Part shown: piece after piece, positions 2,866 to 35,702 of the stretch | Position numbering within the stretch: the first letter of the stretch is position 1 | Layout: the number at the start of each line of letters is the position of its first letter | Source: a virus | DNA length: 37,535 nucleotides | Virus record (IMG/VR): IMGVR_UViG_3300044966_000230 | Span: 1-37,535 of that record | Reading direction: 5' to 3' (one strand) | Notes under the pieces: generated by a model | Database searches by the model: none | Told to the model about the DNA's origin: nothing | Seen by the model: only the letters and a program-made list of their open reading frames with translations | Translations under genes and position numbers: made by a program

Positions 2866-4265
2866 TATAAGCGCCCAACGTTTGGAAATAGGTCTTTAAT
2901 TTTGTTAGGGTCGCCCTTAAAAAACGCGTATACCTTTTGCTCGCATTTGGGGTACTTTCTTGAGTTTAGCGTTTTCTTAGCAGTTGCGCGGCGGGTAAAT
3001 TCGCTTTCTAAATACACGATTCTGTTATAAATATGCAGCCCTTGACTTTTAAAAAATAATTCGTGTTCGGCTTCGCATCCATAATAACCGCCTTTACTAT
3101 CGCGACTATCTCCAGTCATAACGACAAAGAAAGTATTATCATTCATTACCGAAATAGCTTTTTTATAACCTTCAAAAAGTAAATCTCTAAACTCGTCGTA
3201 AGTTGGCAAAGTGTTTAATTCACCGTCGGGCGATTTGCCGTCGTAATCAATATACTTTTCTACTTTATAATAAGGTGGGCAAGAAAATATTAAATCGAAT
3301 TTTTCGGGGTTTTTAGGTAAGTATTTTGAACTATCGGATTGAACCCATTTAACGTTATAAAAGTCCTGACAAATGGCATTATTTGCGTCGCATTGGTTTT
3401 CTCTAATTTCAGAGGATAGATATTCAAAACCGCACCCGCCAGCTACAAAACCCATTTGAACTCCGCCGCCGAATGGATTATAAACCCTCACGCCGTTTTT
3501 TGGCATAAACATTTTTACTATTATCTCACACAATGCAGGGTCTAAAACACTTGCATTGCCGTTTAGGTCTTTGCCTTTATCGGTTATAATTTCGTCGTCT
3601 TTTACAACTTGTTTAGATAAAACTACGTTGCTCATTCCGCTGCTACCTTGCCAGCAACCCTCGCGGCTTGCAAACTTTGGATTAGGTACGTTATACTTTA
3701 ACCCAGCCGCCTCAATTTTTTCGTTCCATTCTCTTTTAATCTTTAACCATTCGCCGCTCGTTGATTGCCATAAATTAGTCATAGCCATATGACAAAGTTT
3801 TTTTACACGCACTTGTTCAGGTTGCCCGTAGTACATATAAACGAAATCCGACTTTTCTAAATTCACTTTAAAGCCTAAAGCCGTAAATACTTTTGGATTT
3901 TCTAAATCATGCTTTTTAGATACCGTCATTATCATTACATAGTTATCAGTATTTTGCTTAATGATTTCAGAAACCATCATCGAATAAATGGTTTTATCTT
4001 TATACTCGGGATACATTGCCGACTGAAGCAAGCAAAACTCTTTTACAACGTGGTTAACCTCGTAAGTAAAAAAGCCCGCAAAATTGCCGTCAATCTCACA
4101 AATAATAGCTGAGTTCTTTTGCATATTCTTTCTTGCGGCTCGATATGCTACGCCATCCAATAAAGCAAGTTCGGCTACTTTTACTTCATAGCCCGAGCCT
4201 ATTACCGAATTAACTTTTTTAATTTCGATTTTTGGCTCAAATAGTTGTGTTTGTTTTGTGTTCAT
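2865..4265 (-). CDS. GNAT-like domain fused to a DNA methyltransferase
   Basis: A 466-residue two-domain protein. Residues ~25-150 look like a GNAT fold (SAIICEIDGNFAGFFTYEV, then FCLLQSAMYPEYKDKTIYSM and a C-terminal ALGF), though the usual acetyl-CoA RGxG loop is not evident. Residues ~190-466 are a Rossmann DNA aminomethyltransferase: SAM-binding VYNPFGGGVQMGF (near 265) and catalytic IFSCPPYY (near 335), the CPPY form of the N4/N6 motif IV. It should methylate adenine or cytosine amino groups, or act with the GNAT part in a larger base modification such as Mom-type carbamoylmethylation (inference). The following cysteine-rich gene starts on its stop codon. Substrate sequence unknown. Confidence 0.72.
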   Translation of the reverse strand: MNTKQTQLFEPKIEIKKVNSVIGSGYEVKVAELALLDGVAYRAARKNMQKNSAIICEIDGNFAGFFTYEVNHVVKEFCLLQSAMYPEYKDKTIYSMMVSEIIKQNTDNYVMIMTVSKKHDLENPKVFTALGFKVNLEKSDFVYMYYGQPEQVRVKKLCHMAMTNLWQSTSGEWLKIKREWNEKIEAAGLKYNVPNPKFASREGCWQGSSGMSNVVLSKQVVKDDEIITDKGKDLNGNASVLDPALCEIIVKMFMPKNGVRVYNPFGGGVQMGFVAGGCGFEYLSSEIRENQCDANNAICQDFYNVKWVQSDSSKYLPKNPEKFDLIFSCPPYYKVEKYIDYDGKSPDGELNTLPTYDEFRDLLFEGYKKAISVMNDNTFFVVMTGDSRDSKGGYYGCEAEHELFFKSQGLHIYNRIVYLESEFTRRATAKKTLNSRKYPKCEQKVYAFFKGDPNKIKDLFPNVGRL

Positions 4266-9097: not shown

Positions 9098-9212
9098 GGC
9101 ATTTAGCTTGTTCGTTTAGTATTGCTTTAGCAACGCTGGGCGGCATTTCGCGTTCGGTTAGGTAAATCTTTAGAACTTTAATCAGCCGCTTATCAATTTG
9201 TTTATCATTCAT
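9054..9212 (-). CDS. 52-aa small helical protein, coupled between PAS-HisKA and spanin-like genes
   Basis: A 52-residue basic helical protein starting MNDKQIDKRLIKVLKIYLTE and ending SKLRLG. ATG 9212 overlaps the stop of the PAS-HisKA gene as ATGA and its end overlaps the next gene by 44 nt, as expected for a real gene in a packed operon. It has no membrane segment. Function unknown. Confidence 0.6.
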   Translation of the reverse strand: MNDKQIDKRLIKVLKIYLTEREMPPSVAKAILNEQAKCRERIDQYISKLRLG

Positions 9213-9775
9213 ATTTGGCGTGTTGCTTTCTTAACTAATACTTTAACTGCTTCATCCAAATTTACAACCGATTCCTCTAACATCCGCAAAAGGTCGGCGC
9301 GTTCGCTTTCTGAAATCGCTTTATTGGTACTTATCAACTTAACCAAACCACTAACCGAGGTTAATGGCTGCCGTAATTCATGCGAAAGCATAAATCTAAA
9401 TTCTTCAAGTAATACCCTTTGGCGTTCGTGTTCGTGCGCGCTTATGCTTGTTACATCAACGAGCTGAAAGCCGATAAAATGCACCGCGCCCATAATTGTA
9501 TAAATATTCCAAACATTGAAACGCTCGGATAAATTCTTTTGCTTCGTTCGGGCGTAAACTCGCGAGGGTTCGGGCTGTTTATCTTTAGCCCTTTTAACGG
9601 CTTCTATTAACGTTTCTTTATCCTCAGGGCTGCTAACTATGTCAACGATGTTTTTCGGCTTTATATGGCTCGCGTAATGCTTAAAAAGTTCGTTGGCGCT
9701 TACTATCGTACCGTCCGTTTCGGTAACAACGTAAAAAAGGTCTAAAGAATTTTCTAAAATGTAAACGGTAGACAC
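9209..9775 (-). CDS. PAS-HisKA protein: histidine-kinase fragment without an ATPase domain
   Basis: A 188-residue protein. Residues ~8-115 form a PAS-like sensor domain (NSLDLFYVVTETDGTIVSAN... RFNVWNIYTIMGAVHFIGFQ). Residues ~125-188 form a HisKA dimerisation/phosphoacceptor hairpin with an H-box, FRFMLSHELRQPLTSVSGLV, containing the phosphorylatable His and the following Glu-Leu-Arg-x-Pro-Leu. The protein stops there: no N, G1, F or G2 boxes of a HATPase domain exist. It cannot phosphorylate itself. It could be phosphorylated in trans by a host kinase, act as a decoy for host two-component signalling, or time lysis, given its lysis-operon site. Start is GTG 9775, right behind a TAnnTTTG element. 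Confidence 0.8.
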   Translation of the reverse strand: MSTVYILENSLDLFYVVTETDGTIVSANELFKHYASHIKPKNIVDIVSSPEDKETLIEAVKRAKDKQPEPSRVYARTKQKNLSERFNVWNIYTIMGAVHFIGFQLVDVTSISAHEHERQRVLLEEFRFMLSHELRQPLTSVSGLVKLISTNKAISESERADLLRMLEESVVNLDEAVKVLVKKATRQI

Positions 9776-19469: not shown

Positions 19470-20852
19470 ATGATAGGAGTAGCAATAACCACCCACAACC
19501 GTAGAGAAACCGCGCTGGAAACAGTTGCTAAATGGAAATCAATGCTGCCAAATGAAGCCGTTATTTTAGTCGTAGACGACGCAAGCAACGAACCATACCC
19601 AAATGCTGATTATCGTTTCGAGGTTAACGTAGGTATTGCCAAAGCAAAAAACAAATGCATCGAGCTGCTAATTGAAAAGGGGTGTACCGAACTATTTTTA
19701 GCCGATGACGATTGCTACCCTATTTCGCCCGAATGGTGGTTAGCCTATACCGAAAGCCCTTACCCTTTGCTTTCTTATACGTTTTCGGTTGTGGCAAAAA
19801 GAATCCAAAACGGTAACCGATTAATAAAAAAAGACGGCGCGCATAAATGGTATTCAAACCCATGCGGCTGCATGGTGTATATTAATAAAAGTGTAGTCGA
19901 TAAAATAGGCGGTTACGATGTGCAATACTCACTATACGGCGATGAGCATTTGGATTATGCTATACGCGCTAAAAACGTCGGGCTTATACCTTACGCTTAC
20001 ATTGATGTTTTCAACCCTTTTTTTTATTGCTTAGATGAAGCTGGTAACTATCGCACGTCGCGTATCGATGCAGCCGCGCAAAGTTATTTAAGCCATAGGC
20101 GGCTATCGGAGCAAAAGCATAGCACGGCTTTTATGCCTTACCACGAAAATAAAAACGAATTACAAAAGCCTTACATTCTTTCGAGTTATTTCAATTACGC
20201 AATTGACCCGCAAAGAAAAGTTAAGTGGGTTAATAGTGTTGCGCCGCTTTTGCCCTTAATGAATAGCTGCAAAGATTTAGGGGTTCGGCTGGTAATCTTA
20301 ACGAATTGCGATTTTGAAAATGACGGAACGACTGAATTTATAAAAATAGAAAACCCCGATAATCAATTTAGCCCTAACGATTTTCGTTGGTTGATGCAGT
20401 TGGACTACATCCAAAAGAATAGAGCCAGCCATGTATATTGCGTAGATGCTACCGACGTTGAGGTGCTTCGTAACCCTTTTGAGATTAATAGCGATTTGCT
20501 TTATGTGGGATATGAAAAGGGGCAAACGCTTGCCAGCCCGTGGCTATGGTCGCATCAATGGAGGCATACTAAAAACGCTAATTACTTTAATATGTTAAAA
20601 GCATCAAAGGGTTTTACGCTTTTAAATTGCGGCGTTGTTGGCGGTGCTTATTCTATTGCCCTTAGATTCTTTCAGCTCATGGCAAACGAAACTTATTTCA
20701 ATGCTAAAAAAACACAAAGGGCTATGGATATGGCTTCGTTTAATTATGTCGTTTATTCGCACTTCGCTGATTCGTTTGTAACAGGCTCGGAAGTAGTTAC
20801 CGAGTTTAAAGCCAACGAAAGAAATACGGTGTCAATGTTTAAACACAAGTAG
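19470..20852 (+). CDS. Two-domain glycosyltransferase, the only plus-strand gene
   Basis: A 460-residue protein. Residues 1-~215 are a family 2 GT-A glycosyltransferase: VAITTHNRRETALETV, VVDDASN, a DxD-type motif in ELFLADDDCYPI (~75-86) and the acceptor-site region GGYDVQYSLYGDEHLDYAIR with catalytic acidic residues. Residues ~240-460 look like a second nucleotide-sugar transferase domain: VRLVILTNCDF, HVYCVDATDVEVLRNPFEI (a D-x-x-D metal site) and FTLLNCGVVGGAY. It should transfer sugars to a phage or host acceptor. Its stop (20852) abuts the MuF gene stop (20853) with no gap and no terminator, so transcripts converge. Inverted against every other gene, it is likely a late insertion. Confidence 0.85.
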   Translation: MIGVAITTHNRRETALETVAKWKSMLPNEAVILVVDDASNEPYPNADYRFEVNVGIAKAKNKCIELLIEKGCTELFLADDDCYPISPEWWLAYTESPYPLLSYTFSVVAKRIQNGNRLIKKDGAHKWYSNPCGCMVYINKSVVDKIGGYDVQYSLYGDEHLDYAIRAKNVGLIPYAYIDVFNPFFYCLDEAGNYRTSRIDAAAQSYLSHRRLSEQKHSTAFMPYHENKNELQKPYILSSYFNYAIDPQRKVKWVNSVAPLLPLMNSCKDLGVRLVILTNCDFENDGTTEFIKIENPDNQFSPNDFRWLMQLDYIQKNRASHVYCVDATDVEVLRNPFEINSDLLYVGYEKGQTLASPWLWSHQWRHTKNANYFNMLKASKGFTLLNCGVVGGAYSIALRFFQLMANETYFNAKKTQRAMDMASFNYVVYSHFADSFVTGSEVVTEFKANERNTVSMFKHK

Positions 20853-23661: not shown

Positions 23662-23738
23662 TACGCGACTGCTTTAGAAGTTGGGTTAACGATAACGTGC
23701 GAACCGCACGACTTAGAACGGCAAAATGTAGGTTTCAT
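23661..23738 (-). CDS. 25-aa microprotein coupled to methyltransferase and portal
   Basis: A 25-residue peptide, MKPTFCRSKSCGSHVIVNPT then SKAVA, with a CxxxxC pair and a His. ATG 23738 overlaps the methyltransferase stop as ATGA and its stop overlaps the portal ATG as TAATG. Such double coupling is hard to explain unless translated; it may be a tiny zinc-binding protein or simply carry ribosomes to the portal gene. Confidence 0.5.
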   Translation of the reverse strand: MKPTFCRSKSCGSHVIVNPTSKAVA

Positions 23739-24301
23739 AGTTTCTGTATTATTGATAAGCCACGCCCCTCGGAAGTGTTGAGCGTAACTACGTTATAATT
23801 ATATTCTTTAACGTAGCGCATTAAATCGCTTACGTCTGCAATGTGCAAAGTATCATGATAGGCAATTACGCCACCTTGAGTAAGTACGCGCTCAATCTCT
23901 TTGAACTCGGCTAATATGTTTTCAAAACTATGGTCGCCATCAACAAATATAAAATCAAAATGGTTTGCTGGCATTGATTGAATAACCGTTATCGATTGCC
24001 CTAAAATAAAATCAACAGCAACGCCGCTACGTTCTAAATTATGCTTTCGGTAATCCGTTATATCGATGCCTGCATAATAACCGCCTATCGGTAGCGCCTC
24101 AATCATTTTAACTGAGGTTTCGCCTTCGAATACTCCAATTTCTAAAACCGCTTTAGCGCCCGTCATTTTAATAAGCGAACCAATAAACTCGCACACATCA
24201 ACTTCACTATTCCATTCGTGGCGAATAGTTTCCCTTTCGGGCAACGGCTCAAGCCCGTATATTTCAATAGGCTGTTGATGGTTAGCGTTTTCCTGTAACA
24301 T
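23735..24301 (-). CDS. SAM-dependent methyltransferase (Methyltransf_24 type)
   Basis: A 188-residue class I methyltransferase: VLEIGVFEGETSVKMIEALP (motif I, SAM-binding), YYAGIDITDYRKH, then HFDFIFVDGDHSFENILAEF (motif IV-like) and LTQGGVIAYHDTLH. The D-G-D-H signature is typical of the Methyltransf_24/cephalosporin hydroxylase-type family that often methylates sugars or small molecules. It overlaps the GT8-like gene by 20 nt, suggesting that both act on the same glycan, for example capping sugars on a virion protein (inference). Followed by the 25-aa gene and the portal. Confidence 0.8.
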   Translation of the reverse strand: MLQENANHQQPIEIYGLEPLPERETIRHEWNSEVDVCEFIGSLIKMTGAKAVLEIGVFEGETSVKMIEALPIGGYYAGIDITDYRKHNLERSGVAVDFILGQSITVIQSMPANHFDFIFVDGDHSFENILAEFKEIERVLTQGGVIAYHDTLHIADVSDLMRYVKEYNYNVVTLNTSEGRGLSIIQKL

Positions 24302-33116: not shown

Positions 33117-33457
33117 ACTACGCACTCCATTAAGTTAATTACTTCGGGTTCTTCGCTTATTATTTCAATGTTCGCCACGCTAAAGCTAATACAATCGTAT
33201 TCCACTTCGCATATCGTAAACTTATTGCAGCCAGCTAATTCGATTGTATAGCCTTGCCCGTTATCTATCTTCGCTCCCGTAATGGTTAGCAGCCCGTCAA
33301 TATCGGATTCGGCGTTAAACGCTTGCAGCTTATTCGTTGCGTTGCTTTTTAGCGTTATGGTGTAGCTTGTTTCGGGTTCTACAAATCCGAACGCTATACC
33401 GCCGTTACAGTAAGCTACTTGAATGCCTGAATCGAAGCAAGGTGAACAAACGCTCAT
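33104..33457 (-). CDS. Hypothetical cysteine-rich protein after the terminase
   Basis: A 117-residue beta-rich protein starting MSVCSPCFDSGIQVAYCNGG and ending LMECVVCNG, so CxxC pairs lie at both ends. The middle is beta sequence (TSYTITLKSNATNKLQAFNA). Similar N-terminal CxxC pairs occur in the 179-aa and 342-aa virion proteins here, so it is probably a virion component, such as a connector or tail-end protein. ATGA overlap with the terminase stop. Confidence 0.6.
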   Translation of the reverse strand: MSVCSPCFDSGIQVAYCNGGIAFGFVEPETSYTITLKSNATNKLQAFNAESDIDGLLTITGAKIDNGQGYTIELAGCNKFTICEVEYDCISFSVANIEIISEEPEVINLMECVVCNG

Positions 33458-34770
33458 AGGTATCGTTTAAGTATTGCGTTTACAAAGTAACGAAAACAAT
33501 CTAAAAAGTCGGCACGCTCTGAAATGTTTTTTCGGTTGCTCTTTATTATTTGCCCGTCCGCGTTGCATTGCACTTGCTTAGCGTCGAAAACAAAGCCTTT
33601 GCAGTTTTTACTATTAACGCGTATATCGAGTTTCTTTAGCGCGGTATTGCAATCAATACGGCTGTTAACGTGGCGCGGGTTCGCTGGTATTATTATTTGA
33701 TTATCGGCTAACTTGAGGCGGCGTTTAATCTGAATGTAAGCGCTTGAGTTATCGCGTTCCTGTATTGTACCGCCTTTGCCCATTGCGTCGCCTGTTATGC
33801 GTATTAGCCCCGTTGGTATGTTCAATGCTTCGACCGCATCGCAGAACGCATCTATTGAGCCGCGCTCTATCTTTATTTCATCCACTACCGTAGCCGAACT
33901 GCCAACGTTTTGAATAACCAAAGCGCATAACGGGTTAATGTTAAAATCGACGCTTATAAACGTCGGTAAATGCGCGTTATGTGTTACGCTATCGTCGATG
34001 TGCTTTTCATCGCTCCATGCGTATAGGAACGGGTTAGCAACGTCGTCTAATACGTCCCAGTCGCCCTCGACGAATCGAGCGTATTGAATAGGCGGTAATT
34101 CCTTTAGCGCTTCGAGGTATTCGGGCGCGATGTGTGGGTTATCTGTTATACGGCTCGGTATGTAAGCCCACCGTTCGGGTAATGTGTTTTCGCGGTATCG
34201 GTTGTATATAATCGACTTAACCCAGTTTTGCGCTGGGTTGCACGTTGCGAGGCAAACGATAGGCGGTTTACCGTGCGCTTTATTCCAACTGCCTATACGT
34301 TCCTGAACTTTGTAGAATGTTACTTCTTGTAATTCGTTTACCTCATCTAAGCCCGCGCCGTTAATCTCTAAACCTCGAAAGCGGTTTAAATCTTTATCGT
34401 CGTCAAACGATTCTGCCATGAACATAAGCTCCGAACCGTTTGTGAATGTTATAACGTTTGTTTCCCTATTCCAGTTCTTAACATAGCTGCTTACCCCGTC
34501 CATCATTATCGAGGCAAAGCTCGGGAACGTGGTACGCTTTAAGTCAGGTAGGCTTTTACGAATAACCGCCCATCGGCTGCGCGGGTACGTTAAACAAAGC
34601 GATGTTAGAGTTAATAGAAGCCAATACGTTTTACCGCCGCGAATCTTTGCCCCCACACTTTCGAGCGGGGGCGGTTATCGTATAGCGCCCCCGAAGACAA
34701 TTACTCTTTTGTCCCCGTTGGTCGCCATGTCGAAGGCTGTGGTTTGTGTTTCAGTTAATGTAAATTGCAT
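33454..34770 (-). CDS. terL: Large terminase, interrupted in Walker A by a stop codon and 36-nt insert
   Basis: The DNA-packaging ATPase and nuclease. Starting at ATG 34770 the frame reads MQFTLTETQTTAFDMATNGD then KRVIVFGGAIR and meets TAA (34677-34675). In the same frame 36 nt later it reads R-GGKTYWLLL... to the stop at 33454. Skipping the insert gives a normal 425-residue protein with Walker A GAIRGGKT. Other motifs are intact: Walker B with GAGLDEVNEL, coupling motif LATCNP, nuclease acids in FISVDFNINP, RITGDAMGKGG and SERADFLDCFRYF. A GTG at 34656 could start a 400-residue form, but that lacks the beta strand before the P-loop. Either translation bypasses the insert, or the gene is broken or starts internally. 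Intactness of the rest argues for function. Confidence 0.85.
34639..34677 (-). other. Candidate translational bypass element in terL
   Basis: Starts with UAA right after codons AUA CGA (Ile-Arg) and ends with landing codons AUU CGC (Ile-Arg). Skipping 36 nt from CGA to CGC keeps frame and protein. Fold 1: GGGGGCG (34692-34686, before the stop) pairs with CGCCCCC (34673-34667), placing CGA and UAA in the loop. Fold 2: GCCCCC (34672-34667) pairs with GGGGGC (34654-34649), extended by further pairs and capped by a GAAA tetraloop (34662-34659). The two folds exclude each other. T4 gene 60 bypass also has a stop after the take-off codon, a tetraloop hairpin and matching codons. One tRNA-Arg (ICG) can read both CGA and CGC. 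Confidence 0.6.
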
Positions 34771-35275
34771 AGCTTTTTATATTACGCATTGCTACGCTTT
34801 TGCATACTCCTAATTTATCAGCAATTGATTTATAGCTCATGCCTAACTTTCTTAGTAAATACATTTGCTCAATTTGCTCTTTTGTTCGTTTAGTCCTGTG
34901 GCTATCAATTGACCTTTTAGCCTTAATCAAACCATTATCAAATGCGTGCTTAATGTTTTCGGAATTAGTAACCCATTCAAGGTTTTCGATACGGTTATTC
35001 TGTTTATTGCCGTCTTTGTGATTAACCATAGGCTTATTCAATTCATTGCTTAAAAACGTTTCAGCAACTAATCGATGCACTTTAAATGTCGTGTGCTTGC
35101 CTAAGTGCTTAAATGCTACTCTTAAATAACCTTTTTTATCTTTTGCAGGCTTTAGGGTTTTGCCTTTTGCATTGATATACTTATCCAAATATTTAACCTT
35201 TCGGTCTATTGTTCGAACATTACCAAAGTTAGAAACCTCAACCTCTGAATTAAATGATTTCCAAATTTCATTCAT
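34751..35275 (-). CDS. HNH homing endonuclease (NUMOD4-HNH-HTH)
   Basis: A 174-residue free-standing homing endonuclease. Order: NUMOD4 (IWKSFNSEVEVSNFGNVRTI, ~3-25), HNH nuclease (VHRLVAETFL...MVNHKDGNKQNNRIENLEWV, ~63-105) with the catalytic H-N-x(8)-N pattern, and a C-terminal helix-turn-helix (KEQIEQMYLLRKLGMSYKSI then ADKLGVCKSVAMRNIKSY) for target binding. It is AT-richer than its neighbours, as expected for a mobile gene. It overlaps the small terminase stop by 8 nt and the first 20 nt of terL. The likely target is terL, given the bypass element 70-110 bp downstream; this is inference. Confidence 0.92.
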   Translation of the reverse strand: MNEIWKSFNSEVEVSNFGNVRTIDRKVKYLDKYINAKGKTLKPAKDKKGYLRVAFKHLGKHTTFKVHRLVAETFLSNELNKPMVNHKDGNKQNNRIENLEWVTNSENIKHAFDNGLIKAKRSIDSHRTKRTKEQIEQMYLLRKLGMSYKSIADKLGVCKSVAMRNIKSYAIYIN

Positions 35276-35702
35276 TGCTATTATTTTTAGTTTCGGTGCG
35301 AATGATAACGAGCGGTTCGGTAGTGGTTATGGTATTTTCTCCGTTATTGCTCCAACGCCCGCGCTGCCTATTCGCTAACCAATGTTTAGCCGCCGCCGTG
35401 TCAGAGGGTAGCTGCTTGCGTAGCTTTACTACTTCGCCGTCCTTAGTTACCGCTTCCTCGACTATCGTAACACCTAATGCACGCTCATACATCGAGCGCG
35501 CTACTTTAGCGTCCGCGTCCTCTTTGCCGCGTGTTAACGACTCTAAAAATGTGGGCTGGTCGCGTTTCCAATTGTTAAACGTCGCCTCACATATATCGAA
35601 TGCCGCTGCCATTTGCACGTCGTTAAGCCCGAGCAAAGCAAGGTTAAACGCCCGTTCGTCGTATTCGGGTTTATAATCCGTTGGTCTACCTAATTTTTTC
35701 AT
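35268..35702 (-). CDS. terS: Small terminase subunit
   Basis: A 144-residue protein that recognises phage DNA for packaging. The N-terminal helix-turn-helix reads GRPTDYKPEYDERAFNLALL, GLNDVQMAAAFDICEATFNN and WKRDQPTFLESLTRG. A helical oligomerisation region follows, and the C-terminus is Thr/Asn-rich and acidic. It is separated from the large subunit only by the inserted HNH gene. ATGA overlap with the 47-aa gene upstream supports the start. Confidence 0.87.
   Translation of the reverse strand: MKKLGRPTDYKPEYDERAFNLALLGLNDVQMAAAFDICEATFNNWKRDQPTFLESLTRGKEDADAKVARSMYERALGVTIVEEAVTKDGEVVKLRKQLPSDTAAAKHWLANRQRGRWSNNGENTITTTEPLVIIRTETKNNSNE

Follow-up and report, generated by a model that had tools for sequence, protein, structure and literature searches.

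A candidate translational bypass element in a proposed homing cassette at the P-loop of a phage large terminase gene

How can a phage make its large terminase subunit (TerL) when the Walker A motif of terL is split by a stop codon and 36 nucleotides that its relatives do without? This question is raised by a viral DNA of 37,535 nucleotides, the whole of which was analysed and is called here the window. Its terL gene lies on the minus strand, starts at ATG 34770 and reads 31 codons into FGGAIR, directly followed by UAA (34677-34675); after the gap, the frame continues from the landing arginine codon with GGC GGT AAA ACG (GGKTYW...) up to the stop at 33454 (Table 1). The second part of the gene, which matches Pfam Terminase_6N and PHROG 979 and 2 (terminase large subunit), belongs to a large terminase subunit, since both the ATPase family match and the conserved motifs are present in the window protein. 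The original prediction, which was made from the letters of the window, described a Walker A motif split by a stop codon and a 36-nt insert and proposed that ribosomes bypass it. The split is confirmed in window coordinates, and comparison of related loci makes it highly probable that ribosomes skip the insert by programmed translational bypassing; the insert would be part of a homing cassette, and the adjoining HNH endonuclease and the mobility of the element had been overlooked.

Table 1. Features of the split terL locus in the window (positions of the 37,535-nt stretch)
Feature	Positions	Strand	Remarks
Terminase small subunit gene	35268..35702	-	upstream of the cassette; PHROG 309, 2e-39
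NUMOD4-HNH endonuclease ORF, 174 aa	34751..35275	-	overlaps terL start by 20 nt
terL exon 1	34678..34770	-	31 codons, MQFTLTETQTTAFDMATNGDKRVIVFGGAIR; encodes the adenine-binding region and the P-loop's first half
5' stem-loop in exon 1	34678..34733	-	base abuts or includes the take-off codon; covariation
Take-off codon CGA (Arg31)	34678..34680	-	ATA-CGA in 49/49 insert-bearing vs 1/53 insert-free loci
36-nt non-coding gap	34642..34677	-	begins with UAA; missing from 53 insert-free homologues
Gap hairpin, GAAA (GNRA) tetraloop	34649..34672	-	starts 5-6 nt after take-off; covariation
Landing codon CGC (Arg)	34639..34641	-	CGN landing in 49 loci
terL exon 2	33454..34638	-	394 aa with ATPase and nuclease domains; resumes at codon GGC (GGKTYW...)

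A protein search with exon 2 recovered 80 IMG/VR loci, 18 of which carry an insert at exactly the same point, and further loci came from two DNA-pattern scans and one hairpin-only pattern, giving 102 loci after de-duplication (about 200 related genes were compared overall). An insert is present at the same terL site in 49 of these 102 unique metagenomic loci, all carriers being metagenomic contigs, and 26 different inserts are found among them; the other 53 loci are uninterrupted and read GAIRGGKT. One scan demanded ATACGA and CCCC...GGGG and is therefore blind to other forms, but its results agree with those of the other searches (protein, endonuclease and hairpin-only), which were free of this constraint. 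All true element matches, including those of the hairpin-only pattern, which asked for no terL sequence, lie at the terL P-loop. The recurrence of one insertion point in 49 unique loci, with 26 different and equally structured inserts, places the window insert far beyond chance and shows that it is not an isolated artefact.

Close terL relatives are absent among GenBank phages, and no cultured phage with an interrupted terL was recognised among the matches listed for the TerLs of the window and of loci L216, L237, L248, L296, L300 and L370. The cultured-phage P-loops that were read base by base are those of Flavobacterium phage 11b, Cellulophaga phage phi10:1 and one Vibrio phage. Compared with the interrupted TerL of L248, those of 11b and phi10:1 show 76% and 61% identity, and in both phages the P-loop is uninterrupted (YGGAAGGGKS) and no endonuclease is annotated directly upstream. 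Five relatives in bacterial genomes, also read base by base, are all uninterrupted, and further bacterial matches show long open frames. The related uninterrupted TerLs are found mainly in Bacteroidota (Sphingobacteriales MAGs, Pedobacter nyackensis and an uncultured Bacteroidetes MAG), with one in a MAG labelled Neomegalonema, so the phage probably infects a member of the Bacteroidota, as judged from these sequence relatives. On the 52,227-base contig IMGVR_UViG_3300044695_002763, terL occurs twice at a distance of about 36 kb, and the insert is present in one copy but not in the other (L027 and L030); the contig probably consists of two related phages joined in assembly, and both alleles coexist in one sample.

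A stop codon inside Walker A could mean that terL is broken, either as a decayed gene or in a defective or mixed population. The median dN/dS of exon 2 is 0.037 in insert-bearing loci and 0.035 in insert-free ones, exon 1 consists of 31 open codons up to the arginine throughout the 102 unique loci, the hairpins described below covary, and the carriers come from many samples and several clades. Both exons of insert-bearing terL are thus under purifying selection at the sequence level, which is selection for the joined protein, and the earlier view that the gene is not decayed is borne out. Additional exon 2 lesions exist in 2 of the 49 carriers and fit a broken gene: L163 has a premature stop at exon 2 codon 238 and L193 a frameshift after approximately exon 2 codon 187, which are either sequencing errors or real decay. 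For the family as a whole, a broken terL is very unlikely.

If the gene is functional, its two parts have to be joined, or the second part has to suffice. The distance from the take-off CGA to the landing CGN is 36 nt in 21 loci, 37 nt in one and 38 nt in 27, so gaps occur in all three frames. In 21 loci the landing codon is immediately preceded by a UAA in its own frame, and in 31 of the 49 insert-bearing loci there is no in-frame start (ATG, GTG or TTG) upstream of the Walker A lysine. Readthrough of UAA, frameshifting and restart are excluded as general solutions by these three observations. A restart inside or after the insert, with a truncated TerL that suffices, has in its favour the in-frame GTG 34656 of the window, which opens a 400-aa ORF; the same start is no general solution because of the 31 loci that lack one, its product would be without the first half of the P-loop, and exon 1 is selected both as protein and as RNA. 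Restart is accordingly given almost no credence. The codon after take-off is a stop in 17 of the 49 loci, among them the window with its UAA, and UGG in 26 of the 49, so a stop at this position is neither essential nor general in the family.

The gap contains a conserved RNA structure. In the window, the GC-rich hairpin GCCCCCGCTC-GAAA-GTGTGGGGGC occupies 34672-34649, and the 47-nt stretch around it has an MFE z of -3.6, with none of 200 shuffles as stable. The distinct inserts, except the longer one of L128, align without gaps over 28 nt and have one layout, which is six nucleotides followed by a 9-bp stem (CCCCNNNNN/NNNNNGGGG) closed by a GNRA loop (GAAA or GCAA; GUAA in L128). Every insert forms this covarying hairpin: its columns are 98.9% paired, with 29 double changes, and the covariation is 0.522 compared with 0.214 after shuffling (0/500), slid controls reaching at most 0.074. 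A second stem-loop lies in exon 1 and ends at the take-off codon. Its 22 distinct insert-bearing sequences fold alike (covariation 0.192 vs 0.130 shuffled, 0/500), and insert-free relatives lack it: pairing of the stem columns is 93% in insert-bearing and 62% in insert-free loci, and the fold z is -3.55 versus -0.38, values below -2 being found in 100% and 2%, respectively. A 3' stem-loop at the start of exon 2 was not found (mean z of the first 60 nt, +0.28), and, as regards a nascent-peptide signal, no KKYK motif is seen in the window, where exon 1 has only 31 aa. Visual inspection of the window had suggested another hairpin, GGGGGCG...CGCCCCC, whose loop would contain the take-off codon; it was discarded, as relatives do not conserve it.

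The landing codons in the 49 loci are CGA (21), CGT (15) and CGC (13), and never CGG or AGR. They are synonymous with the take-off codon in 49/49 loci and identical to it in 21. In the 38-nt class, AGA and AGG make up 40% of the exon 2 arginine codons, yet none is used for landing. CGA, CGT and CGC form the codon set of a tRNA-Arg that carries inosine. A duplicated insertion target would drift at all three positions, whereas the landing codons vary only at the third. The original prediction had Ile-Arg codons on both sides of the gap: the arginine is kept at landing, but the isoleucine is not general, since the triplet before the landing arginine is ATT, TTC, TCC, TAA, TAT or TTA depending on the locus, and it has been dropped from the matched landing site.

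Short matching codons around the insert could also suggest its excision at the DNA level in a fraction of the population. This is extremely improbable, since the flanking identity often covers only two bases, features of RNA type are kept (GNRA loops, G-U pairs in the stems, codon matching) and no excision machinery is evident.

The best rival treats the insert as a tiny intron that is removed before the RNA is translated; such removal, if precise, would give the right protein at all three gap lengths, and it is compatible with a conserved gap hairpin. However, an Rfam search, which covers group I and group II introns, gave no family match up to E = 5, and 36-39 nt is below the size of known self-splicing introns. 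Splicing creates no need for the last triplet of the insert to be synonymous with take-off while its third base varies, it does not predict the conserved exon 1 stem that ends at the take-off codon, and the 3-8 nt versions found in distant terminases could not be introns. An intron is thus improbable. Translational bypassing is favoured by gaps in all three frames, by UAA abutting the landing codon, by covarying stems on both sides of take-off, by a usually synonymous landing and by purifying selection on the exons, and among the mechanisms listed it is the only one that fits all comparative data. Facts that count against bypassing are the lack of a T4-like 3' stem, an A-site UGG that could be decoded normally, four imperfect landings and a stemless sub-family (both among distant loci, see below), and the two lesioned carriers.

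The comparison also indicates that the insert is mobile and moves among phages with its endonuclease gene. The endonuclease ORF (Pfam HNH_3 6e-12 and NUMOD4 2e-8; PHROG 59, HNH endonuclease, 1e-47) has counterparts directly upstream of, and overlapping, the terL start in 22 of 46 insert-bearing loci versus 0 of 52 insert-free ones (p = 1.8e-9, a value that ignores relatedness). The four closest relatives of the endonuclease, searched without reference to terL, are all located on an inserted terL. On the exon 2 tree, the insert's presence and absence require 17 changes, at least 13 of them forced by well-supported branches, and these counts are rough because terL recombines. When phages of one clade with and without the insert are compared, the identity of exon 2 is about 0.9 throughout and that of exon 1 is 0.51-0.83, the switch being at the insert, and insert-bearing members of two clades have a common exon 1. 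From this switch, the endonuclease, exon 1 with its stem and the gap behave as one cassette, of which the NUMOD4-HNH ORF is proposed to be the homing endonuclease.

Cleavage by the endonuclease, the take-off, sliding and landing of the ribosome, and the identity of the tRNA are what we infer from these comparisons. The NUMOD4-HNH enzyme would cleave insert-free relatives at their conserved P-loop sequence, the repair process would copy the endonuclease gene together with terL exon 1 and the insert, and the insert, by destroying the target site, would protect its carrier. During translation, the ribosome would halt on CGA, whose pairing is weak because of the I-A wobble pair, with a stop codon or UGG in the A site and the GNRA hairpin at the mRNA entry, where this hairpin may keep the A site unused. 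The 5' stem-loop may refold in the wake of the ribosome, as far as the take-off codon in the P site, and pull the mRNA; the peptidyl-tRNA(Arg) would then release, the ribosome would slide 36-38 nt and re-pair at CGN, and translation would restart at GGK[T/S].

This type of element has until now been established in phages only for T4, and the best reading of the comparative data is that the terL element would work like T4 byp/mobA in another gene. The T4 gene 60 gap hairpin has a UUCG loop, as opposed to GNRA in the terL element, and includes the take-off codon, whereas the terL hairpin begins 5-6 nt after it. The gap is 50 nt with glycine GGA in gene 60, compared with 36-38 nt and arginine CGA at the terL P-loop. 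In both, a stop often follows take-off, an HNH gene lies nearby and relatives without the gap exist. In T4 the stop is an aid and not the defining step, and landing is assisted by a 3' stem-loop where ORF2 begins; the terL element differs in that no stop is required, no 3' stem is seen, and many lineages show repeated gain or loss. Both systems have a tetraloop hairpin in the non-coding gap near take-off and a 5' stem-loop upstream (PMC11194080, PMC5009743, PMC3014915), which in T4 forms behind the ribosome and promotes directional sliding (PMC11194080, PMC5009743). The terL endonuclease ORF is intact, in contrast to T4 mobA, which appears defective (PMC3014915).

In the mitochondria of Magnusiomyces capitatus, 81 byp sites in one organelle genome are reported to be seemingly independent of mRNA context (PMC5009743). 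As far as that account goes, they resemble the terL element in that short inserts are skipped, an imperfect match of take-off and landing is allowed and no stop is required, and they differ from its single conserved phage site and strong RNA structure. The original prediction took bypassing inside the P-loop of an essential packaging ATPase to be new. The terminase of Streptomyces phage Hau3 is one earlier bypass candidate (cited in PMC5009743), by another route: as cited there, the Hau3 case is tied to a UUA codon, its gap is much shorter, and it is not presented as a cassette inserted together with an endonuclease, which the terL element is.

Searches with the endonuclease family and with distant TerLs reveal terminases, down to 22% identity, interrupted at the same P-loop point. 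A script sorted the 99 distant loci, and those with an interruption were also inspected visually; 71 are intact, all of them lacking an upstream endonuclease. Hairpin types include CGT to CGT or CGA (L254, L370, L385), GCT to GCA (L248) and ATT to ATC (L389), as well as the imperfectly matched CGA to AGT (L216) and CGA to AGA (L430). Minimal types are CGG-UGA-CGG (L296), CGC-UGA-CGT (L377), GGT-UGA-GGC (L300, L302), TCT-UGAC-TCT (L333), TCG-UAG-TCT (L237, L238), CGC-UGACAAA-CGA (L368) and CGC-UGACAAAC-CGT (L374, L375). The landing usually tracks the take-off (Ala-Ala, Ile-Ile, Ser-Ser, Gly-Gly, CGG-CGG), and four distant types have an imperfect match (CGA to AGT, AGA or AGC; GCC to ACT). The Ala-to-Ala hop of L248 would yield exactly the P-loop of phage 11b, and in L389 a six-nucleotide spacer before the stem independently indicates ATT as take-off. 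Strong 5' stems end at or near take-off in L296 (z -6.7), L248 (-5.4) and L300 (-4.5); no 5' stem is present in the L254/L377 sub-family (L254, L370, L385, L389, L377, L368, L374).

Synthetic in-frame stop hops, in which matched codons flank a stop and 9 nt are read as one amino acid, have been described, and no natural one is known according to a review (PMC5009743). CGC-UGA-CGT and CGG-UGA-CGG resemble these constructs but are natural candidates, and the 3-8 nt versions are, by their sequence, candidate natural stop hops. It is reasonably likely that the terL P-loop is a general hotspot, at which NUMOD4-HNH endonucleases repeatedly fixed self-protective inserts that would all be bypassed by the ribosome, as hairpins of 36-39 nt or stop hops of 3-8 nt, with at least five amino-acid/tRNA types (Arg, Ala, Ile, Ser, Gly). 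If so, bypassing is a recurrent phage strategy and these are the first natural stop hops.

Two poorly matched minimal interruptions beside an HNH gene, those of L220 (GCC-TGACT-ATA, 5 nt) and L233 (CGA-CAGC-GGC, 4 nt), could be frameshift sites, minimal hops or decay. In L216, whose terL landing is AGT and not CGN, an in-frame stop (about 3000-3020) interrupts the endonuclease ORF close to the N-terminus, and this may be a decaying cassette.

For decades, efficient programmed bypassing in phages has been a near-singleton (T4 gene 60), so natural variation offered no way to derive its rules. With dozens of natural variants at one site, which have covarying stems on both sides, three gap lengths and varied A-site and take-off codons, its requirements become directly testable. 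The terL cassettes also suggest a general route: a homing endonuclease that targets the best-conserved stretch of an essential gene requires a protective insert that leaves the protein unharmed, and bypassing would supply one with no need for an intron or intein. To gene callers, such phages will seem to lack an intact terminase.

The window has three other genes of note. A small protein at 9209-9775 (-) matches the His kinase A phospho-acceptor domain (Pfam HisKA 9e-7), which is unusual for a phage. An O-methyltransferase family gene at 23735-24301 (-) (Pfam Methyltransf_3 7e-17) adjoins a 308-aa ORF and lies between structural genes. The sole large plus-strand ORF among the minus-strand genes, at 19470-20852 (+), has a weak match to a galactosyltransferase domain and is possibly a recently gained glycosylation gene.
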